Shown here in pieces: positions 18,935 through 31,277 of a stretch of DNA of 33,581 nt. The notes beneath the pieces are model-generated. The model did no database searches and was not told the origin of the DNA. It saw nothing but the letters and a program-made list of their open reading frames with translations. Origin of the DNA: Candidatus Cybelea tumulisoli (lineage in GTDB: Bacteria; Vulcanimicrobiota; Vulcanimicrobiia; Vulcanimicrobiales; Vulcanimicrobiaceae). Where the stretch lies: positions 1,090 through 34,670 of the forward strand of contig PMTY01000162.1 of NCBI GenBank assembly GCA_003167155.1, read 5' to 3'. Made by a program: the position numbers and the translations under genes. Every line of letters begins with the position of its first letter. The stretch's first letter is position 1.

Positions 18935-18975
18935 AATAGCGGGGAAGGGCCCGGCGAGCAACCGAAACGGACGGC

Positions 18976-22801: not shown

Positions 22802-22839
22802 TTGCTGGTGGGTTTTTCTGGAGGAGAGGGCAGGGTCGT

Positions 22840-23238
22840 GAGTCCGTTCGCCTGTTGTTCGGACCCCGCGGCGCCTGGCGTTATATGAACACGTTCGAGG
22901 GCTTCGGGATCACCGTACGTGAGACGCCGAGTGATGTCTCCGAACTGGCGATCCACAGCATTCCCGTCGATCGACTACTCGAAGATCTCGACGTGTCCGT
23001 CTACGCTGTTGCCGCCCCCCACGGAATGATGCCTTCGGTGGCATTTCGCGTCGACCACGCCAAGCCTTCTGCAGTTGGTTACACCGCGCAGCAGAGTGCT
23101 GCAAAAAGGCTGCTGTTGTCGCATCTTATGCCGCCCATCGAGAGCGATCTTACAGATTCTCTAGCGATCGTGCGACGTGCGTACGATGGTCCTATTGAAG
23201 TGGCAAGCGATCTCAAAGAGTACCAAATCGGCGCCTAA
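22840..23238 (+). pseudogene. decayed copy of the MBL-fold hydrolase
   Basis: This stretch translates to a protein closely matching the C-terminal part of the MBL-fold gene at 30382-31260, from VRLLFGPRGAWRYMNTFEGF to SDLKEYQIGA, at roughly 88% identity by eye. The N-terminal half with the metal-binding HLHIDH is missing: homology starts at about 22840, just after the hairpin. A 45-residue in-frame deletion also joins FRVD to HAKPSA, removing the SGD metal-ligand segment. It cannot be an active hydrolase. The frame still has no stops, so decay is recent or a short product persists (possible ATG at 22885). It ends 17 nt from the convergent propeller gene. Confidence 0.82.
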
Positions 23239-27605: not shown

Positions 27606-27718
27606 TGCACGATCCTGACGCAAAATGGTGATCGCTGGAAGGCACAACCACTCGTACAACTTCGGGCGATCGGCTTCCGCGGGTACCTCCGGGCTCGGCC
27701 CGAACCTGACCGAATAGC

Positions 27719-30229
27719 GTGGAAAGCGAGAGCCGAGCGCAGGGATCGCCTGATTTTGGAACGCTCTTGAGGAGCTACCGGCTCGCCGCGGGACTCTCAC
27801 AGGAGGCCCTCGCCGAGCGCGCCGGGATGAGCTCCCACGGAATTAGCGCGCTGGAGCGCGGCTATCGACGCACCCCGCAGCGCGGAACGCTCGCGCTGTT
27901 GGCCGGCGCGCTGGCGCTTAGCGACGCGCAACGCCGGGAACTGGAGGTGGCAGCGGCGCGATGGGTATTGCTGCGAGAAGGCGCGAAAGCCGCGGTCCTC
28001 GTTGGCCCTTGGCCCGACAAACCCGCATCGAACCTGCCGCTCTCGTTGGCGAGCTTCGTTGGGCGCGAGGCCGAGTTGCGCGAGATCGCGTCGCTCGTAC
28101 GCGAGCATCGGCTCGTCACCCTCACGGGAAGCGGCGGCATCGGCAAGACCCAGACCGCGCTGCAGGTCGCGACCGCGTTGGGAGATGCCGGTGCCGTATC
28201 GTTTGTCGGACTCTCGCCACTGAGCGACCCTTCATTGGTGGCGGCAGCGATCGCGTCGACGCTGCGCGTGCAAGAAGCGCCCAATCGTTCGCCGCTTGAG
28301 ACGCTGCTCGAGTATCTGAAGGATAGGACGCTGTTGCTCGCCCTCGACAACTGCGAGCACGTCATAGGGCAAGCCGCCACGGTTGCTCAAACCCTGCTGG
28401 CCCGCTGCCCGCGCCTTCGGATCCTTGCTACGAGCCGCGAGCCATTGCGCGCAGCCGGCGAGCATACCTACCGGCTGCCATCATTAAGTACGCCGTCCCG
28501 CGAAGCCGCAGCGCGGCTGGCCGCGACCGATGCCGCGATGTATGGAGCGATCGAACTCTTTAGCGATCGCGCGCGCGCCATCGATCACCGATTCGTCCTC
28601 ACCGACGCAAATGCACCGGCTGTGGCCGAGCTCTGCCGGCGCCTGGACGGCATTCCGCTGGCGATCGAACTGGCCGCCGCTCGAATAAACTCGCTATCGG
28701 TTGTAGCGCTTGCGGAGAGGCTCGAAGATCGCTTTCGGATTCTCGCCAGCGGCGAGCGCACGGCCCCGGCCCGGCAACAGACCATGCGGGCGACGATCGA
28801 TTGGAGTTACGACTTGCTTTCCGCGCCGGAGCAGCGGCTCTTCGAGCGTCTCTCGATCTTCGCCGGCAGTTGTACCCTGGATTCCGCTACGGCCGTTTGC
28901 GCGGATGAGGGAAGCGTCGATCTCGATGTGTTTGACATGCTGTCGTCGCTGGTCGACAAATCGATGGTGGCGACCGATTTCGAAAGCGGCGAGCCACGCT
29001 TTCGACTACTGGAGTCGTTCCGGAAGTATGCGGGCGAGAAGCTCGCGGTGCGCGGCGAACAAGAGGCCGTGGCGCGACGTTACGCGCGCGCGTGCCTCGA
29101 CCTGGCCGAACGGCTCGAGTACTCGCCCGAGCCTTCGGACGTCTTCAATGCGCTAGCCCAGCGTGAACTCGACGACTGGCGAGCTGCGCTGCAGTGGGCG
29201 TTAGCTGAGCGCCATGACGTTGCCTTGGGGCAACGACTCGTCGGAGTGCTGCGGTTAACCTGGTCCGGCATTGCTGCCTTGGAGGGTCGGGATTGGATCC
29301 GCTCGGCATTCGACCTGGTTGATGAACGAGTTCCGGTCAAGGTGCTCGCAAAGCTTAGTCACGCGGAGGCAATGATCGCTGTCCGGCTTCACGAATATGC
29401 AGTTGCGCTCGCGAGCAGCGAAAGCGCGACCAAGCACTACCGGGTCGCCGGCGACTCGCGCGGAATCGCCAGTGCGCAGACTGTCGCGGGCCTTGCGCTC
29501 GGAGCTCTTGGGCGCGTCGCAGAGGCCCAGGCGACGCTACAAGAAGCCCTGGCAATCGCGCGCAGATTGGACGATCGCAGGCTCGTCGCTTTCGGGCTGC
29601 GTTGCCTCGGGTCTGCCAGCTGTAGTATGGGTGACATCGCCGCCGCTCGTGACTATCTTGCCGAGGCCCTGCCGATCTATGAGGCGATGGATGCGAAGCT
29701 CGGTATCGTCTCGGTGGCTTCCGATCTCGGTGAGTACGAGTTTCGTGCCGGCAATGTCGAGCTGGCACTTAGGCATGCGACGGATGCACTTGCGGTTGCC
29801 CGAGAGTTCAACCACCCTGCCGTAACCAACCACATTCTCGCAAGTGCATCGGGATATCTCGTCTCACTGGATCGGTATGGCGAAGCCAACGAATACGCAA
29901 GCGAGATCCTAGACCTCGTGCGTGGGGAGCCCTTGACCGTCGTCGCCGCGTGGGCTCTTCAGCGCATCGGGGCGATTGCCGCGTTGCGGCCGCAAATCGC
30001 GCAGCGGACACAATCATATGCGCACGCTGCACGGATCTTGGGCTTCGTCGACGCTCGCATCGCTGCGATGGGATCGGCGCGCGACTACGTCGGACAACAG
30101 GAGTACGATCGAGTCCTTGCCGTGCTGCGCTCGGCCATGGGTGCGGATGCAGTCGAGAACCTCATGTCTGAGGGGGAAGCGATGACCGAAGAGCAGGCGC
30201 TAAGGAATCGCTGGCGCCCTAGTACCTGA
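27719..30229 (+). CDS. XRE-HTH / NB-ARC / TPR regulator 2 (STAND family)
   Basis: This 836-residue paralog of regulator 1 has the same order of parts. The XRE helix-turn-helix covers residues 13-68 (FGTLLRSYRLAAGLSQEALA, GISALERGYRRTPQRGT). NB-ARC follows with SFVGREAELREI, Walker A LTGSGGIGKT near 135-144, Walker B LLALDNCEH near 205-213, LATSREPLRAAGEHTYRLPS, GIPLAIELAAARIN and TIDWSYDLLSAPEQRLFERL. TPR-like repeats follow to the end. The start is GTG at 27719. The first 14 codons recur in degraded form at 30290, upstream of the MBL gene. It is divergent from the S53/propeller operon, the most likely target set. The inducing ligand is unknown. Confidence 0.88.
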   Translation: MESESRAQGSPDFGTLLRSYRLAAGLSQEALAERAGMSSHGISALERGYRRTPQRGTLALLAGALALSDAQRRELEVAAARWVLLREGAKAAVLVGPWPDKPASNLPLSLASFVGREAELREIASLVREHRLVTLTGSGGIGKTQTALQVATALGDAGAVSFVGLSPLSDPSLVAAAIASTLRVQEAPNRSPLETLLEYLKDRTLLLALDNCEHVIGQAATVAQTLLARCPRLRILATSREPLRAAGEHTYRLPSLSTPSREAAARLAATDAAMYGAIELFSDRARAIDHRFVLTDANAPAVAELCRRLDGIPLAIELAAARINSLSVVALAERLEDRFRILASGERTAPARQQTMRATIDWSYDLLSAPEQRLFERLSIFAGSCTLDSATAVCADEGSVDLDVFDMLSSLVDKSMVATDFESGEPRFRLLESFRKYAGEKLAVRGEQEAVARRYARACLDLAERLEYSPEPSDVFNALAQRELDDWRAALQWALAERHDVALGQRLVGVLRLTWSGIAALEGRDWIRSAFDLVDERVPVKVLAKLSHAEAMIAVRLHEYAVALASSESATKHYRVAGDSRGIASAQTVAGLALGALGRVAEAQATLQEALAIARRLDDRRLVAFGLRCLGSASCSMGDIAAARDYLAEALPIYEAMDAKLGIVSVASDLGEYEFRAGNVELALRHATDALAVAREFNHPAVTNHILASASGYLVSLDRYGEANEYASEILDLVRGEPLTVVAAWALQRIGAIAALRPQIAQRTQSYAHAARILGFVDARIAAMGSARDYVGQQEYDRVLAVLRSAMGADAVENLMSEGEAMTEEQALRNRWRPST

Positions 30230-30289
30230 CAGCCCAGCAAGTCTGCCGGAAGGCGCACTACCCGCACAACCCGAACCCCGGCGAGCAAC

Positions 30290-30385
30290 GTGGAAAATGA
30301 GGCTCGAGCGTCGGGCTCGCCGGATTTTGGGAGCGCCCATGAAATCAGCGGAGCGTCTATCGACGGCAACGGTTACACCTCTTGA
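30290..30385 (+). pseudogene. stub of a third XRE regulator, now a short upstream ORF of the MBL gene
   Basis: The frame from GTG at 30290 reads VENEARASGSPDFGS, matching the N-terminus of regulator 2 (MESESRAQGSPDFGT) at 10 or 11 of the first 14 residues, with several synonymous differences. After that the match ends. The frame runs on to TGA at 30383-30385, which overlaps the TTG start of the MBL gene (TTGA). This looks like the remnant of a third copy of the regulator. It may now serve as a 31-codon leader that couples translation to the MBL gene. It is too short to encode an HTH. Confidence 0.6.
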
Positions 30386-31260
30386 GCTCGAGGTTATCGC
30401 TCACCGTGCTCGGCAGCGGCGGCCCGATCGCGGATCCAACGCGAGTCTCGGCCGGGTATTTGCTCTCAATCGACGGGAAGCCGCGGCTTCTCGTCGATGC
30501 CGGCGGTGGAACCTTCGAGCGCATTGGACGAAGCGGTCTCGATATTTCGTCCCTCGAGCAGATTCTGCTGAGTCACTTACACATCGACCATACATCGGAC
30601 TTACCGGCGGTCATCATGCACCTCTATATGCGGGACCGCAAGAGACCGATCGCCATAACCGGACCAACTGGTCGCCCCGGTAACGACGCCGCCCCCGAAA
30701 ACGCTTCACCCCAACCAGGAGTGAGAGAGTTCGTTCGCCTGTTGTTTGGACCTCGCGGTGCTTGGCGTTATATGAACACGTTCGAGGGCTTCGGGATCAC
30801 CGTGCATGAGACGCCGAGTGATGTCTCCGAGCTGGCGATCCACAGCATTCCCGTCGATCGAGTACTCGAAGATCTCGACGTGTCCGTCTACGCGGTTGCC
30901 GTCCCGCATGGAATGATGCCTTCGGTGGCATTTCGCGTTGACTGCGGCGCCGAGTCGGTTGTCTTCTCGGGTGACATCTCCGCATCGACCGCATCGTTCA
31001 TCGCGCTTGCCAAGAACTGTTCGATGCTCGTTCACGATTTTGCCTTACCCGAGCGTGACGTACCGCATGGAAATTTACACGCAAAGCCTTCTGCGATTGG
31101 TTACTCGGCGCAGCAGAGCGGCGCCAAGAGGCTGCTGTTGTCGCATCTTATGCCGCCCATCGAGGGCGAGCTTGCACAATCCCTGGCGATCGTGCGAAGT
31201 GAGTACGATGGTCCGATTGACGTAGCGAGCGATCTCAAAACGTACCAAATCGGCCCGTAG
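30382..31260 (+). CDS. MBL-fold (RNase Z/arylsulfatase-like) metal hydrolase
   Basis: The 292-residue product begins with LSLTVLGSGGPIADPTRVSAG, typical of the RNase Z-like branch of metallo-beta-lactamase-fold enzymes. The metal motif HLHIDHTSDLP lies near residue 65, a second ligand is in VVFSGDISAS near 194, LVHDFAL is near 217, and a final His is in RLLLSHLMPP near 252. There is no signal peptide, so it acts in the cytoplasm. The substrate is not evident: tRNA 3' processing, phosphodiester or sulfate ester hydrolysis are all compatible. The TTG start at 30382 has no strong ribosome site; overlap with the short upstream ORF suggests coupled translation. A truncated copy lies at 22840-23238. 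It converges on the GMC gene with 17 nt between the stops. Confidence 0.83.
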   Translation: MSSRLSLTVLGSGGPIADPTRVSAGYLLSIDGKPRLLVDAGGGTFERIGRSGLDISSLEQILLSHLHIDHTSDLPAVIMHLYMRDRKRPIAITGPTGRPGNDAAPENASPQPGVREFVRLLFGPRGAWRYMNTFEGFGITVHETPSDVSELAIHSIPVDRVLEDLDVSVYAVAVPHGMMPSVAFRVDCGAESVVFSGDISASTASFIALAKNCSMLVHDFALPERDVPHGNLHAKPSAIGYSAQQSGAKRLLLSHLMPPIEGELAQSLAIVRSEYDGPIDVASDLKTYQIGP

Positions 31261-31277
31261 GAACGCGAAACTCGATT

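Follow-up and report, generated by a model that had tools for sequence, protein, structure and literature searches.

In Candidatus Cybelea tumulisoli, a leader open reading frame (ORF) of 31 codons directly upstream of a gene for an MBL-fold hydrolase is very probably chimeric in origin, with a head from a regulator gene and a tail from an alpha/beta hydrolase gene. It lies on the forward strand at 30290..30385 of a 33,581-nt stretch of DNA (the window; G000:C164:1090-34670) taken from a 3.7-Mb draft genome. Starting at GTG 30290, the leader translates as VENEARASGSPDFGSAHEISGASIDGNGYTS and ends at a TGA (30383-30385) that overlaps the TTG start of the MBL gene (30382) by −4 nt, so that stop and start together read TTGA (30382..30385, forward strand). 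Open frames of 31 codons are not rare in GC-rich DNA, and a TTG followed by an A always yields an overlapping TGA; what makes this leader more than a chance frame is homology at both of its ends in one shared frame. Taken as a whole, the account that we favour by a modest degree is that of a rearrangement scar acting as a replacement upstream ORF for the MBL gene, the leader probably keeping alive the stop-start overlap for MBL translation.

Regulator and hydrolase ancestry of the leader

The head of the leader (30290..30332, forward strand; 14 codons plus 1 nt) matches the beginning of Reg2, an intact gene for an HTH_31/NB-ARC-like ATPase/TPR regulator of 836 aa (27719..30229, forward strand), with 60 nt between the end of Reg2 and the leader GTG. 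Over the first 14 codons, 32 of 42 nt and 11 of 14 residues are identical. When both strands of the window were scanned without gaps, this match stood 7.3 SD above the window mean (11, SD 2.9), its closest non-self competitor scoring 25/42; extending the comparison by 20 nt upstream gave 45/62 for Reg2 and 32/62 for the next site. The original prediction had reported this 14-codon match, which held, and had called its changes mostly synonymous or conservative, which is slightly generous: six codons differ from Reg2, three synonymously and three not (N/S, A/S and S/Q). A nucleotide profile of the 5′ ends of the regulator family, built without Reg2, also recovered the leader (E = 2.8e-5, rank 3 in the window after Reg2 and Reg1), and the matched segment (30284-30332) covers both the N-terminal coding sequence of the family and its start position. 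Judged by these matches, the head is a descendant of the N-terminus of the HTH_31/NB-ARC/TPR regulator family. When 36 relatives were searched with the 5′ DNA of the leader, only short and weak matches were obtained (best E 1.3e-4, in a part of the query outside the coding head). An identical 13-mer, CCCGGCGAGCAAC, is present just 5′ of Reg1 (18950-18962) and just 5′ of the leader (30277-30289).

One related locus (L097, from palsa_1478 and seen again as G119/L106) carries an intact regulator, hydrolase and MBL gene in this order up to the contig end, which cuts the MBL gene. Its regulator starts with MSKPPVERSNPVGD, an N-terminal leader unrelated to the head found here. A single simple deletion within this known cluster was ruled out for that reason, and the head would instead come from a regulator of the Reg2 type, be it Reg2 itself or a neighbour since lost, with 42 bases being too few to separate the two. 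A local duplication of part of the Reg2 5′ end, in place of a remnant of another regulator, is a possible but doubtful source of the head and would be compatible with our preferred account. Reg2 stands directly upstream and the similarity reaches ~20 nt above the GTG, but the two sequences have diverged by 24% and a regulator of G008 (L076) is equally close to the head (32/42). Truncated regulators elsewhere were considered as parallels and rejected: for a short regulator frame at L092 the downstream gene was not established, and three others continue past gaps or frame breaks or reach a contig end.

The tail (30359..30385, forward strand) consists of the last eight codons and the TGA, and reads IDGNGYTS before the stop. 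The closest relatives of the MBL gene are found in public records placed under Candidatus Eremiobacterota, with orthologs of ~90% identity in G003, G015 and G010 (same genus) and in palsa_1478 (another genus of the same family). In all four loci the gene 5′ of the MBL gene encodes an alpha/beta hydrolase, which ends in AQAVIDVNGYAS before the stop (VDGYAS in palsa_1478), and in 4/4 its TGA overlaps the MBL TTG as an identical TTGA. The blastn homology block between the window and these loci spans 30359-31265, and the tail before the TTG agrees with G015 at 21/23 nt, in the same frame and with the same stop (P ~1e-9 at a match chance of 30%). On this similarity, the tail is the retained end of a lost alpha/beta hydrolase, in the hydrolase frame. 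Since both the tail and the TTGA are the same as in the hydrolase-MBL relatives, the coupling site would be inherited from the hydrolase. Between head and tail, ~25 nt (30333..30358, forward strand) are covered neither by the match to the regulator profile nor by the blastn match to the hydrolase loci and constitute a putative junction filler. The idea that a dead regulator had become a translation signal is therefore only half right: the head does appear to be a regulator remnant, but the coupling end points to the lost hydrolase.

The surroundings of these genes vary. A C-terminal regulator fragment precedes the hydrolase in G003, and a shorter one does so in G015. The hydrolase of palsa_1478 (L097, 4922-5980) is a mosaic, its 5′ and 3′ ends being near those of G003 and its middle 53-80% identical. 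The source genome of the window has a hydrolase paralog on contig C3 (~80% identity) whose tail differs and which is not followed by an MBL gene. On the right-hand side, homology to the relatives stops at 31265, shortly past the MBL stop codon; the next gene is a 610-codon reverse frame and differs from the relatives, with a zinc-alcohol-dehydrogenase-like gene (named by eye) at this place in G003 and G015. The locus may have arisen either by an in-place deletion or by the relocation of an MBL piece.

Start sites and putative coupling of the MBL gene

The MBL gene (30382..31260, forward strand) encodes a protein of 292 aa with a beta-lactamase-superfamily domain and an intact HLHIDH motif. Its product resembles RNase Z/arylsulfatase-like MBL hydrolases (NCBIfam GntH and RNase Z models; PDB 8gyg and 1y44) in sequence and in the HxHxDH motif, but scores far below the NCBIfam GntH and RNase Z equivalog cut-offs (88.9 bits against 292.95 for RNase Z), as it does for every curated equivalog cut-off tried. 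Comparison with the relatives gave dN/dS values of 0.11-0.19, indicating purifying selection. A near-palindromic 30-mer (30469-30498) in the 5′ coding region has inverted matches in G003 and G010. The window also holds a second, partial and decayed MBL copy at 22837-23232, in which the parts for residues 115-187 and 233-291 are joined in an open frame, the two pieces being 93.5% and 85.9% identical in DNA sequence to the intact gene.

The original prediction that the leader frame ends in a TGA overlapping the MBL TTG was confirmed at 30382-30385, as was its claim that the MBL gene has no good ribosome site of its own: no Shine–Dalgarno sequence was detected before the TTG (−2.4 kcal/mol), 53% of random window sites being equal or better. 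Indeed, a Shine–Dalgarno sequence is missing from all five TTGA-linked MBL genes, the one in the window included (−2.4 to −2.8 kcal/mol, close to the random-site median), but present at the four MBL genes that have no intact hydrolase upstream (−5.8 to −6.7, with random sites as good in 4-11%); with nine loci, several of them closely related, this is a pattern and not a test. The latter four include L099, though a broken hydrolase tail is still present upstream. This locus, whose public record is placed under Verrucomicrobia, shows that a broken hydrolase tail also precedes the MBL gene (5989) in a second lineage, where the gene has its own ATG and Shine–Dalgarno sequence. The RNA structure around the MBL start in the window is ordinary (z = 0.08). 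The leader GTG has a weak Shine–Dalgarno sequence (−2.8), and a stronger initiation site at ATG 30339 (−6.5) opens an ORF in another frame that runs beyond the MBL start. Related bacteria, it seems, use the TTGA overlap for translating the MBL gene.

According to the review literature (PMC12548453), ORFs that lie close together are most often spaced as NTGA, and coupling works best at distances of −4 to +3 nt; a proposal that ribosomes are delivered by short upstream ORFs is reported there as well. As in the known NTGA (−4 nt) termination-reinitiation pairs (PMC6728339, PMC12548453), the upstream TGA in the window overlaps the downstream NTG, and the downstream start is likewise without a Shine–Dalgarno sequence; unlike in those gene pairs, the upstream frame would not be a gene but 31 codons pieced together from two dead ones, and the coupling is putative. 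The leader also shares with the ribosome-delivering short upstream ORFs (PMC12548453) its small size and a sole proposed role in translation of the next gene, but differs from them in having a traceable origin, as it appears to have replaced a real gene of which it kept the tail and the overlap. It is thus of a known kind (NTGA coupling, leader ORF) and of unusual origin. Given the missing Shine–Dalgarno sequence, the purifying selection on the MBL gene and the literature on NTGA coupling, we consider it plausible, by a slight balance, that MBL translation is functionally coupled to the leader. Arguments on the other side are the weak site at the leader GTG, the stronger one at ATG 30339, the ordinary RNA structure and the one-in-three chance of an in-frame join.

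The leader could also be an inert scar, the MBL gene being weakly translated from its own TTG or on its way out, which we consider unlikely. Two pieces are joined in frame by chance in one of three cases, open frames of this length are common in such DNA, and the decayed MBL copy at 22837-23232 is in keeping with this reading. The low dN/dS of the intact gene argues against this, however, as does its start, which has no Shine–Dalgarno sequence, unlike the starts of MBL genes without an upstream hydrolase.

Upstream box and possible promoter

Many HTH/NB-ARC/TPR regulators of the genus share an upstream box (for example at 27632-27662, and at L011, L013, L084, L089 and L092), approximately CCG[TG]AAC-N2-ACA-N3-GACAACT-N4-CCGnACACTTG, often followed nearer the start by TGAGG[AG]TG and CGAA. 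Its consensus had no match in the source genome at ≤3 mismatches. The box is possibly an autoregulatory site. The ~27 bases 5′ of the leader (30245..30270, forward strand) agree with the upstream box of Reg2 at 21/27 nt, and random segments scored as well in 32/3000 cases for the box only and in 66/3000 for the whole upstream region (~1-2%). The profile of the regulator upstream box missed the leader; a possible box remnant is suggested only by the pairwise comparison with Reg2. A search of 29900-30500 for sigma-70-type promoters and terminators was negative. The proposal that a regulator-type promoter now drives the MBL gene is, in consequence, weakly supported by the box match, and read-through from Reg2 into the MBL gene is equally possible because Reg2 ends so close upstream.

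A proposed route from a lost operon gene to a leader ORF

According to the rearrangement account that we favour, the ancestral order would have been regulator, alpha/beta hydrolase and MBL gene, as in the related loci, where the stop of the hydrolase forms a TTGA overlap with the MBL start. The lineage of the window would have lost the hydrolase body together with its regulator while keeping eight hydrolase codons, the overlap and the MBL gene. To these remains, the first 14 codons of a Reg2-type regulator, its start codon among them, would have been joined in frame via the filler, contributing a replacement start only. Ribosomes would start at the regulator-type GTG, read 31 codons and terminate at the TGA, then begin again at the MBL TTG that overlaps it, the leader thereby taking the place of the hydrolase as the ribosome-delivering ORF. 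We infer that the leader is translated and that the MBL gene depends on it. More tentatively, selection may have preserved the coupling site after loss of the upstream gene, such that an unrelated regulator fragment came to feed the TTGA overlap and the MBL gene came under a regulator-type start and perhaps promoter.

It is very improbable that a third regulator paralog simply decayed in place, with its own frame drifting to end at the MBL start. The head does match the regulator family, but this homology is over by codon 14 and the profile did not extend past 30332 even when shifted-frame homology was searched for; the leader has no HTH domain and no Pfam match, and its coupling end is a hydrolase tail in the hydrolase frame. 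Moreover, the intact third regulator that the original prediction had led us to look for was not found at this position among the relatives examined, and the L097 regulator, as described above, begins differently. Least credible is an assembly chimera of unrelated pieces, for although the genome is a draft MAG of 201 contigs, a DNA search revealed no second copy of the leader stretch in it and neither piece recurs exactly in the other sequence of this genome compared here.

If the ancestry alone is right, the leader is an ordinary deletion scar. If the whole account is true, it would reveal a traceable route to a short upstream ORF via the death of an operon gene, whose last codons and stop would have been kept because the next start is otherwise unreadable. 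It would also predict that TTGA-linked MBL genes lack a Shine–Dalgarno sequence and that other MBL genes have one, and it would caution that a leader ORF may be the scar of an operon gene that has been lost.
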